This document shows positions 34,429 to 44,452 of a DNA stretch of 44,625 bases, in pieces. The stretch comes from Candidatus Hydrogenedentota bacterium (GTDB taxonomy: Bacteria; Hydrogenedentota; Hydrogenedentia; Hydrogenedentales; SLHB01). Under the pieces are notes generated by a model. That model had not been told where the DNA came from and ran no database searches. It saw nothing but the letters and a program-made list of their open reading frames with translations. The position numbers and the translations under genes are program-made. The DNA is taken from NCBI GenBank assembly GCA_016215105.1, contig JACRLJ010000073.1:61876-106500 (forward strand), in the 5' to 3' direction. The stretch's first letter is position 1; every line of letters begins with the position of its first letter.

Positions 34429-35720
34429 CCGAATCCAACACGGAAAAGAGCCTGGATGTCACCAAGACCCTTGGTCTTGACAAGCCCCGCTCGAGGATGC
34501 GCCGCCTCAGGAACCTTCTGCTGTTCATTTTTGCCGCAGGGGCGCTGGTGGCCGCCGGCATGTTCTGGCTTACGCGGGGCAGGACAAACTCCGTGGCCTA
34601 CGACACACAACCCGCGCGTCGAGGCGACTTGGTGGTCACCGTGAGCGCCACGGGTACCCTTGAGCCGATGAAGAAAGTGGAAGTTGGAATCGAGGTGTCC
34701 GGGACGATCAAGACTGTCGAAGTGGACTACAACGACCACGTGGAAGTAGGCCAGGTTCTGGCGCGGCTCGATACATCGAAGCTCGAAGCGCAGGCCTTGC
34801 AGTCCAGTTCCGCGCTCGAGGCCGCGCGCGCCAAATTGCTGCAAGCCCAAGCGACTGTGCAGGAGACCGAGGCGCAGATGGAGCGCTTGAGCGAGGTCCG
34901 TAAGCTGACCGAGGGCAAGATGCCGTCGCAGAGCGAGTTCGACACGCAAAAGGCCGCGCAGGCTCGGGCTCGGGCGGATGAAGCCAGCGCGAAGGCGTCC
35001 GTGGCGCAGGCGCAGGCCACGCTGGACGCCAATCGGTCGGACTTGGATAAAGCCGTCGTTCATTCACCCATTAACGGTGTCGTCCTGAAGCGCGCCACCG
35101 AGCCTGGCCAGACGGTGGCGGCCATGTTCCAATCGCCGGTGCTATTCACGCTTGCGGAGGACTTGGCGCAAATGGAACTCCAAGTCGACGTGGACGAGGC
35201 GGACGTGGGCCAAGTGAGCGCGGGCCAAGATGCCACGTTCACGGTGGACGCCTATCCGGATCGCCTTTTCCCCGCGCGCACGACCCAGGTCCGCTACGGG
35301 TCTCAGACCGTTGATGGTGTCGTAACCTATAAGGCCGTGCTGAGGGTGGACAACACCAGTCTCACGTTGCGGCCGGGGATGACGGCAACCGCCCTGATTA
35401 CGGTTGATAGCCGGAAAGATGCGCTCCTCGTTCCCAATGCCGCGTTGCGCTTCACGCCGCCGAAAGCGCCGACGGAGAAGAAGTCTGGCGGAGGCGGCAT
35501 CCTCAGTTCGATTCTGCCGCGTCCTCCCGGTCAAGAGTCTACGCCTCGAGAGGAGACGAACGGCAAAGCCAAAGACCAACAGGTATGGACCCTTCGGGAC
35601 GGGCAGTTGACGGCTATCGCCATCACCAAAGGGCTCAGTGACGGCACGATGACCGAAGTGACCAGCGGCGCGATCGAGCCGGGAATGGATCTGGTCACTG
35701 ATATTGCAGCGGCTAAATAA
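34425..35720 (+). CDS. MacA-like periplasmic adaptor (HlyD family)
   Basis: The 431-residue protein has an N-terminal transmembrane helix (about 30-49), a lipoyl-like half (V-S-G-T-I-K-T-V-E-V-D-Y-N-D-H-V-E-V-G-Q), a long helical hairpin (about 115-200, Ala/Glu/Gln-rich), the second lipoyl half (H-S-P-I-N-G-V-V-L-K-R) and a beta-barrel/membrane-proximal domain. A Gly-rich insertion (K-S-G-G-G-G-I-L) is followed by a linker rich in Pro and charged residues (about 360-385) that is longer than usual. It bridges the inner-membrane ABC transporter and the outer-membrane TolC-like channel encoded downstream. It is translationally coupled to its neighbours (ATGA and TAATG overlaps). Confidence 0.9.
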   Translation: MTESNTEKSLDVTKTLGLDKPRSRMRRLRNLLLFIFAAGALVAAGMFWLTRGRTNSVAYDTQPARRGDLVVTVSATGTLEPMKKVEVGIEVSGTIKTVEVDYNDHVEVGQVLARLDTSKLEAQALQSSSALEAARAKLLQAQATVQETEAQMERLSEVRKLTEGKMPSQSEFDTQKAAQARARADEASAKASVAQAQATLDANRSDLDKAVVHSPINGVVLKRATEPGQTVAAMFQSPVLFTLAEDLAQMELQVDVDEADVGQVSAGQDATFTVDAYPDRLFPARTTQVRYGSQTVDGVVTYKAVLRVDNTSLTLRPGMTATALITVDSRKDALLVPNAALRFTPPKAPTEKKSGGGGILSSILPRPPGQESTPREETNGKAKDQQVWTLRDGQLTAIAITKGLSDGTMTEVTSGAIEPGMDLVTDIAAAK

Positions 35721-36457
35721 TGGGTAGCGAAGACTCCAACGGCGCATCACGTCAGCCGATCATCGAGTTGAGCGGCGTAACCAAGGTCTACGGGACCGGC
35801 ACGGCCGCCATGGAAGCGCTTCGCGGCGTGGACCTGCGCATCTACCCCGGCGAGTTTGTGGCGGTGATGGGACCGAGCGGCTCCGGTAAGAGCACGTGCA
35901 TGAACATTGTCGGGTGTCTTGACACGCCCACCTCGGGCGCGTACCGCTTCTGCGGGGTCGAAGTGGGCAAGCTCACACGCAACCAGCGGGCGTTGTTGCG
36001 CCGTCATTACCTCGGCTTCGTGTTTCAGGGGTTCAACCTTCTGAATCGCACCTCCGCATTGGAGAACGTCGAGCTTCCGCTGATTTACCGGGGCGAGGCG
36101 GTCCGAACGAGACATCAACGCGCGAATCACGCCATGCATGCGGTCGGACTGAACGGCTGGGAACATCACACTCCCGGCGAACTCTCCGGAGGCCAACAGC
36201 AGCGGGTCGCCATTGCGCGCGCCATTGTCGCCGAACCCCTTGTGCTGCTCGCGGACGAGCCGACCGGCAATCTGGACTCCGCGCGCAGCGTCGAGATTAT
36301 GGGTCTGCTGACTTCGTTCAACCGCGACCAGGGGATCACTATCGTGATGGTAACTCACGAGCCTGACATGGCCGCGTACGCCAAGCGGACAGTGCATTTC
36401 AGGGATGGACTGATCGCGACGGATCATTCAAACGGAGACAGCCTTCATGTTGGCTAA
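35720..36457 (+). CDS. ABC transporter ATP-binding protein (MacB/LolD type)
   Basis: The 245-residue protein has Walker A (G-P-S-G-S-G-K-S-T), Q-loop, signature L-S-G-G-Q-Q-Q-R, Walker B ([12 protein letters not shown]) and the H-loop (M-V-T-H-E-P) of the MacB/LolD family, with R[14 protein letters not shown]. It powers efflux through the permease that overlaps its end by 11 bp. In MacB itself the ATPase and permease are fused; here they are separate genes, the common split form. Confidence 0.93.
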
Positions 36458-37652
36458 TGCCCTTTTGCTGGCGCTGCGCGAACTTCGCCGCAACGTGATG
36501 CGCTCCTTCTTGACGATGCTGGGCATCATCATCGGTGTCGCCTCCGTGATCATTCTGGTGACGCTCGGCGGCGGAGCGACCCGGCAAGTTACGGAACAGA
36601 TCTCCAGCCTGGGCAGCAACCTGATGATGGTTACGCCGGGCAAGCGCATGGGGCCGGGCCAAGGCTCGAGCGGCGCCCCCTTCAAGATAGCCGATGCGGA
36701 GGCCATCGCACGCGAGATCACTGCGCTGCGGGCCGTCGCCCCAGTAGCGACCAGTCCTGTCACGGCCGTGTTGGGAAACGAAAACTGGTCCAGCACGGTG
36801 ACGGGCACGACGGAAGAATACTTCGACGTGCTCAATCGGCGGGTAAAGGAAGGCCGGATATTTACGCAATCCGAGACGCGCTCCGGCGTAGCGGTCTGCA
36901 TTATCGGGGAAACGATACGGACCAACTTGTTTGGAGGCCAGGACCCTATTGGCAGCAAGATCCGCCTCGGCAAGGTTTCGTGTGAGGTTATCGGTCTCCT
37001 CGAAGCCAAAGGCCAATCCACCATGGGGCAGGATCAGGATGACGTCATCGTCATGCCGCTGCGCGCGTTCCAGCGTCGCATTTCCGGCAAGGACGACGTT
37101 AGCCTTATTCAAGTCTCCGTGAAGGACGGGGTATCCACGGACAAGGTCAAGGTGGATATCGGCCGTTTAATGCGCGTTCGCCGGCATCTGTCCGCCAATC
37201 AGGACGACAATTTCAGCGTGATGGATCTGAAAGAGATCTCGACGATGCTTTCCGGCACGACACGCGTGCTTACCGGCTTGCTGGGCGCCGTGGCTGCCGT
37301 GAGTCTGTTGGTGGGCGGCATCGGCATCATGAACATCATGCTCGTGTCGGTAACGGAGCGTACTCGTGAAATCGGGACGCGCCTTGCCATCGGGGCGCTG
37401 GAACGCGAAGTGCTCTTGCAGTTTCTCGTCGAGTCGGTCGTCTTGGCGTCCTTTGGCGGACTGATTGGCATCGTTGGCGCCCTCGTGGTGTCGCTTGCGC
37501 TGACGGGCGTACTTCAAGTCCCCTTCGTTTTCAACGCCAAGATCGTTCTCGTCGGATTCCTCTTTTCCGGCGCGATCGGGATTGTGTTTGGTTACTTTCC
37601 CGCGCGCAAGGCCGCCAGGCTGGACCCTATTGAGGCGCTACGCCATGAATAA
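36447..37652 (+). CDS. MacB-type ABC transporter permease
   Basis: The 401-residue protein has one N-terminal helix (N-V-M-R-S-F-L-T-M-L-G-I-I-I-G-V-A-S-V-I-I-L-V, interrupted in writing), a large periplasmic domain (about 55-280) and three C-terminal helices with the FtsX-like block G-I-G-I-M-N-I-M-L-V-S-V-T-E-R-T-R-E-I-G and A-R-K-A-A-R-L-D-P-I-E-A-L-R. It forms the mechanotransmission core that pushes substrates from the periplasm through the adaptor and outer-membrane channel. It overlaps the ATPase gene by 11 bp. Confidence 0.93.
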   Translation: MLANALLLALRELRRNVMRSFLTMLGIIIGVASVIILVTLGGGATRQVTEQISSLGSNLMMVTPGKRMGPGQGSSGAPFKIADAEAIAREITALRAVAPVATSPVTAVLGNENWSSTVTGTTEEYFDVLNRRVKEGRIFTQSETRSGVAVCIIGETIRTNLFGGQDPIGSKIRLGKVSCEVIGLLEAKGQSTMGQDQDDVIVMPLRAFQRRISGKDDVSLIQVSVKDGVSTDKVKVDIGRLMRVRRHLSANQDDNFSVMDLKEISTMLSGTTRVLTGLLGAVAAVSLLVGGIGIMNIMLVSVTERTREIGTRLAIGALEREVLLQFLVESVVLASFGGLIGIVGALVVSLALTGVLQVPFVFNAKIVLVGFLFSGAIGIVFGYFPARKAARLDPIEALRHE

Positions 37653-37686
37653 TAGAGGCGTTATGCTGTGCTATAATGCTAACACT

Positions 37687-39306
37687 ATGCAACGTGTAGC
37701 CTGCGGAATCGTACTGTCCTTGCTGCTGGTGTCCTGTACTACCGGGCCGGACTATCGTCGCCCTGCGCTGAATCCGCCAACGGCGTACAAGAGCGCGACG
37801 TCCGCGGAAACGGCCCAACCAGGACTCGGCCAGGATTGGTGGCGCCTTTTCAACGATCCGGAACTCAACGCGCTTGTCGAGGAGGCGCTGAAAGCGAATC
37901 AGAATCTCAAGGCGGCCATGGCGCGGGTGGCGCAGTCGCGCGCTTCCGCACAGTCGGTGAAGAGCGCGTTCTTTCCGGTAATCACGTTGGATCCTTCGGG
38001 CACGCGATCTCGAACTCCTGGCACCGAATCGTCCACCGATTCGCTATCCAGCAAACTCTCCCAGGCTGCCTCGACCATCAACCAGGTGTCGAGCGTATTG
38101 GACGGGATCACTTCGCTGGCGCAGGGCACAAGCGGCAGTTCACAGAGCGCCGGTGCAGCCGGCGCGGGGTCAGGCGCGTCCGCCACGAGCACGGCAATCC
38201 CCGCAACGACAAGCAATCGCCTTCAGGTTCCTTTCGACTTCTCGTACGAGATTGATATCTGGGGCCGCGTGCGCCGCTCCTACGAGTCAGCAACGGCACA
38301 GGCCCAAGCGTCTGTCTATGATCTCGAAGTGGTCCGGCAGACGCTCCTGGCAGATCTTGCCCGCAACTACTTCAACCTTCGTTCATTCGATGCCCAGTAC
38401 GAGCTACTCACGCGAAATCTTGAGTTGTACCACGAACAGGTTGACCTGACTCAAAACCAGCACAAGGCCGGCTTGATCGACGAGAGCAGTGTGCTGCAAG
38501 CCACGGTGCAACTGGAGGCGACACGGGCGCAGGCGGCGGACATCCGGCGGCAACGCGCCGACTTGGAACACGCGATCGCGATCTTGCTGGGATGCGCGCC
38601 GGCGGACTTTTCGTTGGATACGCGGCCGCCCGCCGCAACGCCGCTCGTGATACCCGCGGGACTTCCCGCCGACTTGCTGCGGCAGCGGCCTGACGTGGCC
38701 GAGGCGGAGCAGAATCTCGTCGCGGCCAGTGCGGAGATTGGCGTGGCCGAGGCGGATTTCTTCCCCGCCGTGAAACTCACCGGGTCCGCCGGTTTCCAGA
38801 GTTCCGATCTCGGCAGCGTTCTGGAGTGGAGCAACCGCGCCTGGTCCATCGGGCCCAGTATTTCCGTTCCCATATTCAAGGGCGGGCAGTTACAGGCCAA
38901 CCTGCGGAAAGCCAAGGCGCGCTACGACGAACTCGAGGCAACGTACCGCAACAAGGTGCTGAGCGCGTTCGTTGACGTGGAGGATTCGTTGACCGACCTC
39001 CACATTCGCGCCGATGCGGCCGAAGCGCTGGCGAAGGCAGTCGCCGCGGGCCGGGAAAACCTGCGCCTCACACAGATTCAATATCGCAGCGGCGTTATTG
39101 ACTACTTGCACGTCGTAAACGCGGAACAGACCTTGCTGAGCAACGAGCTTTCCGAGGCCCAAATCCTGAACCAGCGCATGGTCTCCAGCGTCTTGCTGAT
39201 CAAGGCGCTTGGCGGCGGGTGGGAGGCGCAACCTCTCCCGTCCGCGCAAGAACTGAAGTCCTCGGAGGCGCCGGGTACCACAGCGATAAACACGGGTACG
39301 GGGTAG
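37687..39306 (+). CDS. TolC-like outer-membrane efflux lipoprotein (NodT family)
   Basis: I prefer ATG 37687, which places a lipoprotein signal at the start (MQRVACGIVLSLLLVSC); ATG 37645, overlapping the permease stop, is an alternative. The product has 539 residues with the NodT opening G-P-D-Y-R-R-P and Q-D-W-W-R-L-F-N-D-P-E-L-N-A-L-V. It has two helical repeats of the outer-membrane efflux family (L-L-R-Q-R-P-D-V-A-E-A-E; G-V-I-D-Y-L-H-V-V-N-A-E-Q-T-L-L) and L-S-V-P-I-F-like text. An Ala/Gly/Ser-rich insertion of about 35 residues (about 125-160) is unusual. It completes the tripartite pump encoded by the operon. Confidence 0.9.
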   Translation: MQRVACGIVLSLLLVSCTTGPDYRRPALNPPTAYKSATSAETAQPGLGQDWWRLFNDPELNALVEEALKANQNLKAAMARVAQSRASAQSVKSAFFPVITLDPSGTRSRTPGTESSTDSLSSKLSQAASTINQVSSVLDGITSLAQGTSGSSQSAGAAGAGSGASATSTAIPATTSNRLQVPFDFSYEIDIWGRVRRSYESATAQAQASVYDLEVVRQTLLADLARNYFNLRSFDAQYELLTRNLELYHEQVDLTQNQHKAGLIDESSVLQATVQLEATRAQAADIRRQRADLEHAIAILLGCAPADFSLDTRPPAATPLVIPAGLPADLLRQRPDVAEAEQNLVAASAEIGVAEADFFPAVKLTGSAGFQSSDLGSVLEWSNRAWSIGPSISVPIFKGGQLQANLRKAKARYDELEATYRNKVLSAFVDVEDSLTDLHIRADAAEALAKAVAAGRENLRLTQIQYRSGVIDYLHVVNAEQTLLSNELSEAQILNQRMVSSVLLIKALGGGWEAQPLPSAQELKSSEAPGTTAINTGTG

Positions 39307-40222: not shown

Positions 40223-43200
40223 CTACCCTCCAAAATCCGTTGGGAGGCCGTTGACGATGCGGACGGTGTCGAGGCTGACGCGGATCACTTGGCCGACAAG
40301 GCGGACGATGTATTCGGGGTCGCCGGCGCGGTTGGGATCGGAGACGATACCGGTTCGGGCGTCTTTCTTGACCTGATACTGGTCAATGACCCATTCGAGG
40401 GCGCTTCTGTTGCCGAGGCGGTAGTCGAAGCATTTCGGAGGAATGCCGCTGAGAATCAGGGACTTGTTGACCGTTAGGGACGCCTTGTCCTTGCTTAGGC
40501 GCATTCTGTCCTCGACCCGGTAGGACAAGGGCACGCCTTTGGTTTCGACGTAGGTCAGTTCAAAGGGTTCGATTTGCTCGTAGTCCAGGTGTCCGTGGGC
40601 GAGTTCCTTGCCTGCCTTTGAAAAGGCCCAAAAGTCGGGCGCGAACGGGATGCGCGGGAGTTCGCGTTTCAGGTTATCGGCGTACTTGGTACGGTAGCCG
40701 GGATGGTGCAACAGGCCGTAGACGTAGTAGAAGATGTCCCATTTCGTGATCTTCTTGTCGGTGTATTGCGCGCGAAACTGCTTCAAAGCCCAGTCGGTGA
40801 CGTTTTCGCGGCGATTGGAGCCGTCTTCGTCGTAGACGTAGAAGGGGAAGCACTGAGAACCACCTTGAGGTAGAAGGTCCACAACTTCTTGTGCGGCAAG
40901 CGCAAACATTGGCCATTCTGAGCCGACTTTTAGCCAGAGCAGCTGATTCTCTCCCTCACACTTTTTGGTTGGAGATATTTCTGACATTAGGTAGCGACGT
41001 TCGTTCATCAATGAATCGAAGTAAAGACTTTTTGAAACATAGGGCCTGTACAAAGCGGTCCTGAGCCTGGATACGTCAAAGTCCGCGTAAGTTCCATGAG
41101 TCAACGCGTGCTTAAGAGTGGCACTCCAGTCGACCTTGTCGTAGCGAACGAACTCGTCCACGTTTTTGAGGCCCGTGGCTCTCTTCCAGCGGTCCACCTC
41201 GGCGTTGTAATCGTCGATGAATTGTTTGACGCGTGTGATGAGGGCGTCGCGGTTGAAGTCGTAGACGACATCGTCGCGGTTGGTTTTCACGCCGCCGGAA
41301 AAGAGTTTGAAGATACATTCGACGTCTTGCTCTTCGTCGGATTTGGCGTCTTTGGAGCCGATGGGGACGAAGGTTTGGAAGGCGTCGGCGTTTTCGGGGA
41401 TGAGCCACGTGTGGCGTGGGTCTGGGGTGATTGGGCGCCAGGAGTGTACGGTGAATTTGGAACCGCTTTCGCTCGTGGTGGGTATTGTAGCGCCGGCGTC
41501 CTCGCCGGCTTGGGGCGGGGATGCCGCCGAGACGGCGGCGCTACGAGGGGGCGTTTTGGGACCTGGGGATGCCGCCGAGACGGCGGTGCTACGAAGGGGC
41601 GCTTTGGGACTTGGGGATGCCGCCGAGACGGCGGTGCTACGGTTTAGTGCGTCGGTGGTGGAGTTGGTAGCGTCCTCGCCGGCTTTTGGAGAAGATGCCG
41701 CCGAGACGGCGGCGCTACGTGTTGGAGTAGGGGTTGGAGGGGGCGCTTTGGGACTTGGGGATGCCGCCGGGACGGCGGCGCTACTTGGCGCGCTAGGGGT
41801 TTGAGGGGGCGCGGTGGGACTTGGGGTTGCCGCCGGGACGGCGGCGCTACGGGGCGTTGTGCTGGCAGCGGTACGGGGCGCGGGGGCGGTTTCGGGGAAC
41901 GCGGCTTCATAGAAGTGCGGCGCTCCTTGACCGTCTTGGCCTTCGTAACCGGTCCATGGCCAATCACGGAGGCCGGCCGCGTCGGGATTGCCGATGATGT
42001 AGTTCATGAGGGCGCTGTATTCTTCGGGATCTCGGACGAGATGATCGTAGGATTCTCGTTGCCAGAAGGCGCCTTTGCGTTTGAGAAGGGCGTTGGCTTT
42101 GTGCGCGGTATACGACTTTAGTGAGTGCATGATGTCTTCGAGCTTGTGATGCGGATGGGCTGAAAACAAAAGATGAATGTGGTTGGGCATGATGCACCAC
42201 GCGAGGAGCCGGTAGCGGTCACCATCGAAGAAATGCAGCGCATCACGAACCATTGTGGCAACTACGGTGTCCTTGAGTAGACAGGCGCCGGATCCGGCGT
42301 CGAGGTATTGTTGGATTCTATCGGATTCGTCGAAGGTTGGGTCTTCTTCGCGTTTGGCTTTGAGTTCGGCGAGCACGGATGCGGGTAAGGAATCGGCCAA
42401 ACGGGCGGTAATGAAGTAAATGCCTCCGGGGGCTTCGACGTGAGGCAGATAGCCGCGGGTACGGAGGGTTACGCCTGTGGGAGAATTGGGCGGGGATGCC
42501 TTCGAGCTGACGCGGAAGTTTGTAGCGCCGGCGTCTTCGCCGGCTATTGGAGAAGATGCTGCCGGGACGGCGGCGCTACGAGGTGAGTTTTTAGGAACGT
42601 TGAGACCGCCGACGCTTTTGCGATCTTGGAGCCAGGCTAGCTTTTCTTCCTTGCGCCACATCTCTGGAACGCGGTGGTAAAAGATGTGGCGCCGGGGTAC
42701 GGTTGATGCGTGGTTTCGGATGGCTACGGTGATTCCCACGCCTACCTGGATGCCAAACACGTTGTGGGAAGTGCCGCTAATCTTGGGGTTCTTGCGGACG
42801 TTTCCGTGGAGATCTACGTGGTAGATCGTGGTGAAGTCTTGGGCGAGGTGTTTGCGCACACCGTCAAATGCAAGTTGGTCTACGAAGCTGTTGTTGGAGA
42901 CGTAACAGACGATGCCGTCGCGGCCTTCCAGGCGGTCCACAGCCCAACGGAAGAATTTTACATACGCGTCGGACAGGGCGTTCTTGTTGGTGGCTGCGGA
43001 GTCGTGGGTGTAGGTTTGGCTGATACGTTTGTCTATGACCGGGTATTTGCGGTTCTTGTTGTTATCGTTTTCGTTAAGCTGGCCAACGTTATAGGGCGGA
43101 TTGCCGATGATGACGGTGATGGGCGTCGTCTTCTGCCGCTGAACGCGGGCGGTGTTTTCCTGCGTCATGAAACCAAATTCGGCCTGGGCGTGTTCGGCCA

Positions 43201-44452
43201 TGTCGAGGGTGTCTACGAAGCAGAGCCCTTCAAAGGATTCGTATTCGCCGGTGATCTCGAAGTGGGCGTGTTCGATGTTGAGGGCGGCGATATAGTAGGG
43301 CAGGAGCATGACTTCGTTGGCGAAGAGTTGTTCGCGGTACATGCGCTTGACGTCGCGCTTAGGAATACGGCGGAGGATGTTGACGATAAAGTTTCCGGTG
43401 CCCGTGCAGGGGTCGAGGATATTGACGTCTTTGCTGCCGAGGGTTTTGCCGAACTCCTTTTCGAGGACTTCGGCGACGCTGGCGCACATGAAATCCACAA
43501 TGGGTTGCGGGGTGTAGACGATGCCGTGGGTGTCGGCCAGCTTGACGGAATAACCTTGGAAGAACCGTTCGTAGACCGTATTGAGGAAGTGCTGCTTCTC
43601 AGAGAAATCGGCGAGGCCGCGCGCGGCGTCCTCGATGGCGACGTAGAAGCGGTCGAGGGACTTGAGGAATTCGCGGCGGTTGAAGCTCTTGCTGACCAGG
43701 GCGGAAATGACCTTTTCGACTTCGGCGGCAATGACGTTGCGGGAAGTGAATTCCTCATTGTCGAAGATAGTGCGGATGAGGCGTTCCGTGAGCAGGTGCT
43801 GGACGAGCATTTCGTCCACGGCGGCGCGGCTAATGTTGGGGTTCAAGGAGTGCTGGCAGAGACGGAAGAAATCAGCAAATGCGGCTTGAAACTTGGCGTT
43901 GCTCTTATGGGCTTCCTCGATCTTCAGGGTCAAGCCTTTCGCCAGGTCGGGCACCCGTTCGCGAAACTCCTCGACGGCCGTCTCGAATTTGTCTATGTCG
44001 GGTTCGGTGTGGCCGAAGAACCGGTTGAGCAGGTCGGCGAGTTCCTGCGGCTGGCCGAGGTTCACCCTCAGGACTTCTTCGCCATCCTGGTACAGGACGC
44101 CCTGGCGTGTGTCTTCAAAGATGATGTTCGTGGTGGGATAGCCGCGGGCCAACTTCTTCGCGATTTCCGCGTCCAGGTCGTCTTTGGTGTCTTTTGCCTC
44201 CCAATATCCGCGCGGCAAGAAGTTTACGTCGCGGATCGTGGCGTCAGGGATAACGCGGTTTCCCGCGTGTTTACCGCCCAACTCCGTGAGCACGTCCCAG
44301 TTGCGCGCTTTGGCTAGATCAAATAGGAGCGTCTGAAAAGCCGGACGCGTGGCGGATTCGTGTTCGACGCCTTGCGCGTGAATACGGCCCAAGGTTTCGT
44401 AATAGCGCTTGATGGTGCGGTGGGCCGGTTTGATGGAGGTTATGTTTGACAT
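40223..44452 (-). CDS. Type ISP-like restriction-modification protein with embedded RAYT
   Basis: The 1409-residue product has AGGGG just before its ATG. Residues 1-110 look like a PD-(D/E)XK nuclease (P-D70-A-T ... G-Y-W-E85-A-K87). A helical spacer follows, then an N6-adenine methyltransferase with D347-P-C-T-G-T-G-N-F (SAM motif I) and G-N451-P-P-Y454-N (catalytic motif). The C-terminal part (about 1000-1409) begins I-T-P-D-P-R-H-T-W-L and resembles the specificity domain of type ISP enzymes. No helicase motifs are present, unlike LlaGI. Between them, about residues 618-1000, is a foreign block: a RAYT domain (M-P-N-H758-I-H760-L-L-F; catalytic Y802 in R-E-S-Y-D-H) flanked by translated REP repeats (R-S-A-A-V-P-A-A-S type). 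Without it the protein would be about 1026 residues, a normal size. Whether the host enzyme still works is unknown. Confidence 0.85.
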   Translation of the reverse strand: MSNITSIKPAHRTIKRYYETLGRIHAQGVEHESATRPAFQTLLFDLAKARNWDVLTELGGKHAGNRVIPDATIRDVNFLPRGYWEAKDTKDDLDAEIAKKLARGYPTTNIIFEDTRQGVLYQDGEEVLRVNLGQPQELADLLNRFFGHTEPDIDKFETAVEEFRERVPDLAKGLTLKIEEAHKSNAKFQAAFADFFRLCQHSLNPNISRAAVDEMLVQHLLTERLIRTIFDNEEFTSRNVIAAEVEKVISALVSKSFNRREFLKSLDRFYVAIEDAARGLADFSEKQHFLNTVYERFFQGYSVKLADTHGIVYTPQPIVDFMCASVAEVLEKEFGKTLGSKDVNILDPCTGTGNFIVNILRRIPKRDVKRMYREQLFANEVMLLPYYIAALNIEHAHFEITGEYESFEGLCFVDTLDMAEHAQAEFGFMTQENTARVQRQKTTPITVIIGNPPYNVGQLNENDNNKNRKYPVIDKRISQTYTHDSAATNKNALSDAYVKFFRWAVDRLEGRDGIVCYVSNNSFVDQLAFDGVRKHLAQDFTTIYHVDLHGNVRKNPKISGTSHNVFGIQVGVGITVAIRNHASTVPRRHIFYHRVPEMWRKEEKLAWLQDRKSVGGLNVPKNSPRSAAVPAASSPIAGEDAGATNFRVSSKASPPNSPTGVTLRTRGYLPHVEAPGGIYFITARLADSLPASVLAELKAKREEDPTFDESDRIQQYLDAGSGACLLKDTVVATMVRDALHFFDGDRYRLLAWCIMPNHIHLLFSAHPHHKLEDIMHSLKSYTAHKANALLKRKGAFWQRESYDHLVRDPEEYSALMNYIIGNPDAAGLRDWPWTGYEGQDGQGAPHFYEAAFPETAPAPRTAASTTPRSAAVPAATPSPTAPPQTPSAPSSAAVPAASPSPKAPPPTPTPTRSAAVSAASSPKAGEDATNSTTDALNRSTAVSAASPSPKAPLRSTAVSAASPGPKTPPRSAAVSAASPPQAGEDAGATIPTTSESGSKFTVHSWRPITPDPRHTWLIPENADAFQTFVPIGSKDAKSDEEQDVECIFKLFSGGVKTNRDDVVYDFNRDALITRVKQFIDDYNAEVDRWKRATGLKNVDEFVRYDKVDWSATLKHALTHGTYADFDVSRLRTALYRPYVSKSLYFDSLMNERRYLMSEISPTKKCEGENQLLWLKVGSEWPMFALAAQEVVDLLPQGGSQCFPFYVYDEDGSNRRENVTDWALKQFRAQYTDKKITKWDIFYYVYGLLHHPGYRTKYADNLKRELPRIPFAPDFWAFSKAGKELAHGHLDYEQIEPFELTYVETKGVPLSYRVEDRMRLSKDKASLTVNKSLILSGIPPKCFDYRLGNRSALEWVIDQYQVKKDARTGIVSDPNRAGDPEYIVRLVGQVIRVSLDTVRIVNGLPTDFGG
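41487..41850. repeat. REP-unit cluster inside the restriction gene (RAYT 3' side)
   Basis: Six half-units built on GCCGCCGAGACGGCGGCGCTA (shown here one base short at the end; the last base is C) start at 41521, 41569, 41617, 41695, 41761 and 41827 with small changes. The first three are exactly 48 bp apart. Two are completed to full inverted units: 41487-41544 (58 bp, GTAG at one foot and CTAC at the other) and 41667-41718 (52 bp, 6 bp shorter). Length changes are multiples of three, and all units are read in one frame without a stop. Confidence 0.85.
41930..42470 (-). mobile_element. Embedded REP-associated tyrosine transposase (RAYT) domain
   Basis: Within the restriction gene the block starting R-G-Y-L-P-H-V-E-A-P-G-G-I-Y-F-I-T-A-R-L is the usual Y1_Tnp/RAYT opening. 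It continues to the metal-binding H758-x-H760 and the nucleophile Tyr802, and ends R-D-W-P-W-T-G-Y-E-G. In this family the tyrosine cuts single-stranded REP hairpins headed by GTAG. The usual first Met before T-L-R-T-R-G is replaced by a GTA codon (Val), so no separate start is visible and it would be made only as part of the fusion. Confidence 0.85.
42522..42579. repeat. REP unit inside the restriction gene (RAYT 5' side)
   Basis: A single 58-bp inverted unit: GTAGCGCCGGCGTCTTCGCC at 42522 and GCCGGGACGGCGGCGCTAC ending at 42579. The length and layout equal the unit at 41487-41544, so the RAYT domain is bracketed by two like-oriented units. In the encoded protein it reads R-S-A-A-V-P-A-A-S-S-P-I-A-G-E-D-A-G-A-T. 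Confidence 0.85.

Follow-up and report, generated by a model that had tools for sequence, protein, structure and literature searches.

A RAYT transposase with its REPINs, read in frame inside a DrdV-like restriction-modification enzyme, and the recurrence of such insertions

Introduction

Can a whole transposase gene, together with its palindromes, live as a translated domain inside an unrelated enzyme? The question is raised by one open reading frame (ORF) in a 44,625-nt stretch of DNA (here called the window) from a Candidatus Hydrogenedentota bacterium (assembly GCA_016215105.1, contig JACRLJ010000073.1, positions 61,876 to 106,500 of the forward strand). The ORF is predicted to encode a restriction-modification (RM) enzyme resembling DrdV, and within it, in the same frame, lies a transposase of the repetitive extragenic palindrome (REP)-associated tyrosine transposase (RAYT) type, bordered by hairpin-forming REP doublets (REPINs).

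RAYTs flanked by inverted GTAG REPs are well described (Nunvar 2010, PMC2817692), and a RAYT with its GTAG REPs and REPINs is called a REPtron (PMC2817692; Bertels and Rainey 2011, PMC3116915). RAYTs are regarded as vertically inherited, domesticated, single-copy genes, and the persistence of REPINs is debated (PMC8049555). REPs of 20–82 aa that are read in frame within genes have been suggested to lie in flexible linkers or loops, in a study that treated REPtrons separately (Di Nocera 2013, PMC3733652), and a 2018 survey set aside TnpA_Y1 proteins of unexpected length, taking them for gene fusions or errors of annotation (PMC6006769). Our search of the open-licence literature, which did not extend to subscription papers and preprints, turned up no account of a RAYT housed within another protein.

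Results

An in-frame insert in a DrdV-like enzyme

The initial annotation of the window described a single uninterrupted frame of 1409 codons, and this frame was recovered with the following organization.

40223–44452 (−): predicted DrdV-like single-chain RM enzyme with embedded REPtron; 1409-codon ORF with an ATG start
44192–44245 (−): PD-(D/E)xK nuclease motif, D70 ... E85-A-K87 (from the sequence and alignment with DrdV 7lo5)
43613–43972 (−): ISP_coupler, residues 161–280 (Pfam)
42602–43594 (−): N6-adenine methyltransferase region, residues 287–617, with motif I D347-PCTGTGNF and motif IV N451-PPY
41444–42601 (−): in-frame insert, residues 618–1003, 386 codons, missing in 66/66 homologues with a readable junction
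40301–41314 (−): Type_ISP_C target recognition domain, residues 1047–1384 (Pfam)

The insert lies at the junction of the methyltransferase and specificity domains. We fetched 80 homologues of the host and could read this junction in 66; in every one, the equivalents of residues 617 and 1005 are separated by 0–18 residues, versus 387 in the window, an absence of the insert far beyond chance. The in-frame RAYT at a permissive methyltransferase/specificity junction proposed in the initial annotation is supported. The interval 41487–42579 that it had named marks the outer ends of two REPIN hairpins, and the full insert extends beyond both.

Pfam matches on the 1409-aa frame comprise ISP_coupler (161–280), N6_Mtase (287–473), Y1_Tnp (745–819, the profile match that had been proposed as a check on the insert) and Type_ISP_C (1047–1384, E=6e-89); the scan found no helicase/ATPase region in the host. 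The nuclease and the two methyltransferase motifs are present as previously described, with D70, E85 and K87 aligning to DrdV. The closest solved structure to the host part is DrdV itself (7lo5/7lvv, 1029 aa), which aligns with residues 13–612 and 1000–1406 such that DrdV residues 612 and 613 are contiguous at the position of the insert. Without the insert the host is 1023 aa long, versus 1029 for DrdV and 1578 for LlaBIII. Because DrdV is the best structural match and LlaGI and LlaBIII, which are type ISP enzymes that depend on ATP, match less well, the host is best classified as a putative DrdV-like single-chain RM enzyme and not as a member of the type ISP group. This corrects the initial annotation, which had called the specificity region type ISP-like.

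The host retains 174/175 of the columns that are conserved in ≥95% of homologues (residues 280–1409). In an AlphaFold model of the same residues, most of the methyltransferase and specificity halves are predicted at high confidence (mostly >85), the REP stretches are at very low confidence, and long low-confidence linkers flank the RAYT on both sides. The best Foldseek match to this model is DrdV 7lo5.

The methyltransferase/specificity junction is a permissive site in the DrdV family, where L074 (loci are cited by our own numbers) carries a short repeat-like peptide. An Anaerolineae DrdV homologue (L048:7430-8330) has a different in-frame cassette at this junction, a DUF559 protein (E=1e-39) flanked by translated repeats 'DPLPTSPASRGG', which suggests that DUF559 genes may share the translated-insert habit. 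A Pirellulales homologue (L049:8640-11543) carries another HUH-type transposase in frame within the specificity region, accompanied by translated 'LPYGRGSGTE' repeats; this locus is truncated by the contig end.

REPtron anatomy of the insert

The insert contains the following elements.

42522–42579 (−): upstream REPIN, two inverted GTAG REPs, 58 nt, one hairpin (DNA, −18.4 kcal/mol, z −3.7), translated SAAVPAASSPIAGEDAGAT
41945–42472 (−): RAYT domain, residues 661–836, without its own start codon
42173–42181 (−): catalytic H758-I-H760 (alignment with 4er8)
41999–42001 (−): predicted nucleophilic tyrosine Y818, in NYIIGNPDAAG (alignment with 4er8), adjoining the RAYT NPxxxG motif (PMC2817692)
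41571–41850 (−): array of five more translated REPs, at 41829–41850, 41763–41784, 41697–41718, 41619–41640 and 41571–41592
41487–41544 (−): downstream REPIN, 58 nt, full hairpin (DNA, −23.8 kcal/mol, z −5.0), translated SAAVSAASPPQAGEDAGAT

The RAYT is thus flanked, at both ends of the insert, by 58-nt REPINs made of inverted GTAG REPs, and the five-REP array lies between the RAYT and the downstream REPIN. All of these REPs are translated free of stops, as SAAVPAAS...AGEDAGAT-type peptides. The arrangement reads as that of a complete REPtron, a RAYT gene with cognate GTAG REPIN hairpins.

The RAYT domain scores 249–255 bits on the profile of its own clade (A1, built with the window RAYT as a member), and NCBIfam REP_Tyr_transpos (NF047646) matches residues 728–833 at 74 bits, slightly below its 80-bit cut-off. 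AlphaFold modelled the domain alone with a predicted local distance difference test score of 76, and its best Foldseek match is TnpA_REP bound to a REP hairpin (4er8, E=5e-8). H758, H760 and Y818 align with 4er8 chain positions 59, 61 and 115 and are invariant in A1. The initial annotation had named H758 and H760 together with Y802; the histidines stand, and we rejected Y802 as the nucleophile, since this position aligns with a tryptophan of 4er8 and is variable (Y/F/W/H) in relatives. The motif following Y818, NPDAAG, retains NPxxxG and differs in its middle residues from the NP(L/V)(R/K)xG described next to the RAYT tyrosine (PMC2817692). Codons 618–692 include no ATG, GTG or TTG, in agreement with the earlier view that the RAYT lacks a start of its own and that a fused polypeptide is the sole evident product.

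The window REPIN is dispersed in its own genome: ten loci were read, with nine intact dimers among them, mostly where there is no long frame. It was found beside none of the genome's other 12 Y1 transposases. Because the REPIN family sits at the ends of the insert and near no other Y1 transposase, the embedded RAYT is likely its cognate transposase. The window RAYT is present in a single copy, the best other RAYT being 42% identical. Two related free RAYTs ~2.3 kb apart in the same genome (L191) have no copy of the window REPIN family nearby.

In-frame embedding is recurrent

We read and Pfam-scanned loci carrying RAYTs and counted as embedded those in which the RAYT is flanked on each side by domains of a single host protein. 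This definition gave 33 cases, including the window, in 25 genomes and 17 host kinds: DrdV/ISP, Eco57I-type, MmeI, HsdR, LeuRS, ValRS, PriA, CarB, ClpB, MetH, IspG, HypF, XseA, YgfZ, a radical-SAM/B12 protein, GT4 and a helicase/NOV_C protein. The RAYT clade of the window is in frame in at least 31 other proteins of 16 further kinds, mostly in Verrucomicrobiota; the second in-frame case found through RAYTs of the window's family was an Eco57I/MmeI-like methyltransferase. One ISP case among the 33, from a deltaproteobacterial metagenome-assembled genome (L263:1135-4554(-)), is a type ISP-like enzyme with its RAYT near the methyltransferase/specificity junction, and this RAYT belongs to another clade. 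Almost every insert has translated repeat peptides at its borders (tgfqpv, tgipac, vaqasrlp/rrdacdt, gtgvppv/grdahat).

The A1 profile was used to find copies by phylum; the lists are ordered by score, and the resulting fractions describe the best copies among the matches listed. Frames >900 aa hold 5/52 strong clade copies in the window's own phylum and 33 of the best 150 copies in Verrucomicrobia (the phylum of L087; 388 genomes), and frames >600 aa hold 13/91 copies in Planctomycetota (the phylum of L066), scored by frame length alone. Using frames >500 aa in Verrucomicrobia, 52/150 clade RAYTs qualify versus ~1/157 IS200 transposases (Fisher p ~1e-17); ordinary IS200 transposases of Verrucomicrobiota are not embedded. 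The initial annotation had considered that many homologues might carry the domain as an ordinary part of their family. This is not so for the DrdV family (0/66), but it is so in a sense for the RAYT clade, given the 33 long-frame copies in Verrucomicrobia.

Several candidates were set aside. Chance long frames are ruled out by Pfam domains of the same host on both sides and by the IS200 control, and a 685-aa frame (L187) was dropped because its upstream part resembles a non-coding open frame. Loci lacking a recognizable host domain beyond the RAYT were not counted (L307, L322, L332, L341, L345-L348, L351). A phage or plasmid vehicle was rejected: none of 50,697 phage records matched, the two plasmid matches were weak and bore no annotation beyond transposase, and IMG/VR yielded only two weakly related RAYTs.

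In one LeuRS case (L314:400-6924(-)) the frame with the RAYT extends to 2175 aa, continuing for ~1000 aa beyond LeuRS. Translated repeats (GNADVPVG) also occur at both termini of two free RAYTs (L126, L128), which might be a form from which in-frame insertion is launched.

Beyond the initial annotation, the translated flanking REPs belong to the element, the REPtron is complete with the genome's own REPIN family, and embedding recurs in dozens of unrelated hosts.

Gain, loss and selection of embedded RAYTs

Of 67 sequences that we scored as embedded, 65 retain HxH and Y; this set also takes in some whose second host half is unproven. When the embedded or free state is mapped onto a tree of 111 RAYT domains, 23 changes are required, at least 15 of them forced by well-supported branches; embedding has arisen many times. 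Copies in the same host tend to group (MetH, RarA, radical-SAM, RM), and for LeuRS and PriA a single origin without replacement does not suffice. A copy from the window's phylum (L185) clusters with copies from Verrucomicrobia that occupy a similar position in an enzyme of the same type, which points to transfer of host gene and insert together.

Same-site pairs have nonsynonymous divergence (dN) of 0.15–0.5 and synonymous divergence (dS) >1 or saturated, values that indicate purifying selection on embedded RAYTs in these sister cases. Different states of one LeuRS family are seen: most readable orthologues have an empty loop of 19–20 residues, five have a RAYT-bearing segment of 232–249 residues, and L378, the nearest relative of one of the carriers (92% identical over the query segment), has a REP-like stretch, 'GGTPELPEASSAPGTAI', without a RAYT. 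This stretch may be what a lost RAYT left behind, a REP-like scar, or it may represent a REP-first state; read either way, the LeuRS states record gain or loss of a RAYT within one gene. In another family, PriA, the RAYT is present in 5/6 readable orthologues.

Among embedded copies examined, 36/41 have no ATG within 35 codons of the domain. L318 has an ATG at −6 and a GTG at −4 near the RAYT domain, with a Shine-Dalgarno-like motif.

Discussion

We think it likely that a whole REPtron became a translated domain insertion in the window, expressed via and frame-protected by its DrdV-like host enzyme. The REPINs would be read as Ala/Pro-rich, stop-free in-frame linkers, both host halves would still fold as in DrdV, and the RAYT would fold as a tethered HUH domain, expressed solely as part of the host protein. 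Because a stop or frameshift within the RAYT would destroy the host enzyme and cost the cell its function, selection on the host would guard the RAYT frame. The RAYT would presumably still nick DNA and spread its REPINs, and the window case would belong to a widespread class of REPtrons that are embedded and translated. This account builds on what the sequences display, namely the frame and its boundaries, the intact host and catalytic residues, the association of REPINs with the RAYT, the recurrence, the purifying selection in sister cases and the gain or loss of a RAYT in a single gene. From these we infer that the fused protein is produced, that both of its activities function and that host protection explains the persistence of the element, which would benefit from the arrangement.

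Several observations weigh against this account. The AlphaFold model of residues 280–1409 did not resolve the RAYT, because only two related alignment rows covered it. The window RAYT lies on a long branch of the tree, its best relative being 50% identical, and the selection figures come from sister cases. In a radical-SAM pair (L300/L303) and an RM pair (L299/L302) synonymous sites have diverged more in the RAYT than in the host sequence flanking it, and this suggests that RAYTs are sometimes swapped or re-acquired at conserved sites, not simply inherited with the host. The source genome is a draft assembly of 171 contigs, and the ORF lies at a contig end, as might be expected of an assembly chimera; we nonetheless regard a chimera as barely credible, since no second RAYT copy closer than 42% is available to drive a misjoin, the frame is maintained over both junctions, and equivalent fusions occur in 24 other genomes, one of them on a 5.68-Mb contig (L338).

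The long low-confidence linkers on either side of the RAYT, and the few copies with starts near the domain (e.g., L318), would suit a RAYT that is made separately or released, by internal initiation or by proteolysis at the Ala/Pro linkers, with the fusion serving as an expression device only. We judge this somewhat unlikely given the lack of start codons at window residues 618–692 and near most embedded copies. That the insertion is a tolerated relic, a one-off linker event that is now inert, is in keeping with a single-copy RAYT without close relatives located in a linker; it is unlikely in view of the retained catalytic residues and the purifying selection in sister cases, and because the window RAYT is complete, with its REPIN family dispersed through the genome. 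The initial annotation had entertained a coupling of a DNA-cutting domain to restriction, whereby the RAYT was recruited as an accessory domain of the enzyme, e.g., as a single-strand nuclease against invading DNA. RM enzymes are indeed a frequent host class, with DrdV/ISP, Eco57I-type, MmeI and HsdR accounting for roughly a third of the well-supported cases; catalytic residues are retained, and in L048 the same junction is taken by a DUF559 protein, of a family presumed to be nucleases. As a general explanation, however, coupling is disfavoured and in our estimate improbable, because the same module sits in LeuRS, ValRS, PriA, CarB, MetH, IspG, HypF, YgfZ and glycosyltransferases, where a shared restriction role makes no sense. 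Moreover, no DrdV homologue with a readable junction carries the RAYT, and the permissive linkers of long, multidomain RM genes suffice to explain the RM cases.

The embedded, translated REPtron that we favour resembles described REPtrons in its HUH and Y transposase, inverted GTAG REP pairs, dispersed REPINs, intact HxH and Tyr and, with different middle residues, the NPxxxG by the Tyr; described RAYTs, however, are free-standing genes, whereas the window RAYT and its REPs are translated inside an unrelated enzyme without a start codon. The host shares its nuclease, coupler, N6-methyltransferase and Type_ISP_C architecture with DrdV (7lo5/7lvv) and more distantly with LlaGI/LlaBIII, none of which has the insert. 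Inteins are in-frame mobile-element inserts in conserved, often essential proteins, found repeatedly at the same site in orthologues. The insertions in LeuRS and PriA are likewise recurrent and in frame at the same orthologue sites, but elements of the window type are bounded by REPs and evidently stay in the protein; no intein family was among the Pfam matches of the host/RAYT frames, and no dedicated splicing-motif search was made. Intragenic GTAG/CGTC REPs and Rickettsia palindromic elements are also palindromes read in frame in unrelated proteins, including DNA-repair genes and tRNA synthetases; they are 20–82 aa long and gene-free, whereas the window insert carries a whole transposase. 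Relative to these intragenic REPs and to free REPtrons, a whole RAYT as a translated domain is provisionally new, and its presence in many unrelated, often essential enzymes suggests that a mobile-element gene can subsist on its host in a manner not described before.

On the opposite strand of the window (35720–39306), the genes neighbouring the ORF look, from translations read by eye, like an ordinary MacB-type ABC transporter (ATPase, permease) with a TolC-like outer membrane efflux set.

The odds seem to us even that translated REPtrons represent a distinct life-style of mobile genes, as long-lived, obligate in-frame domains of essential enzymes that draw expression and protection from stops and frameshifts from the host, recolonise the same permissive sites and leave in-frame REP scars upon loss. 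The insertions map natural permissive sites in LeuRS, PriA, CarB, MetH, ClpB and restriction enzymes, and they warn annotators of chimeric calls in key enzymes. Embedded RAYTs may also explain the long proteins dropped by the 2018 survey (PMC6006769). They make the question of REPIN/RAYT persistence directly testable and, if such a life-style is real, would provide one concrete answer to the puzzle of how single-copy RAYTs and REPIN populations persist (PMC8049555).
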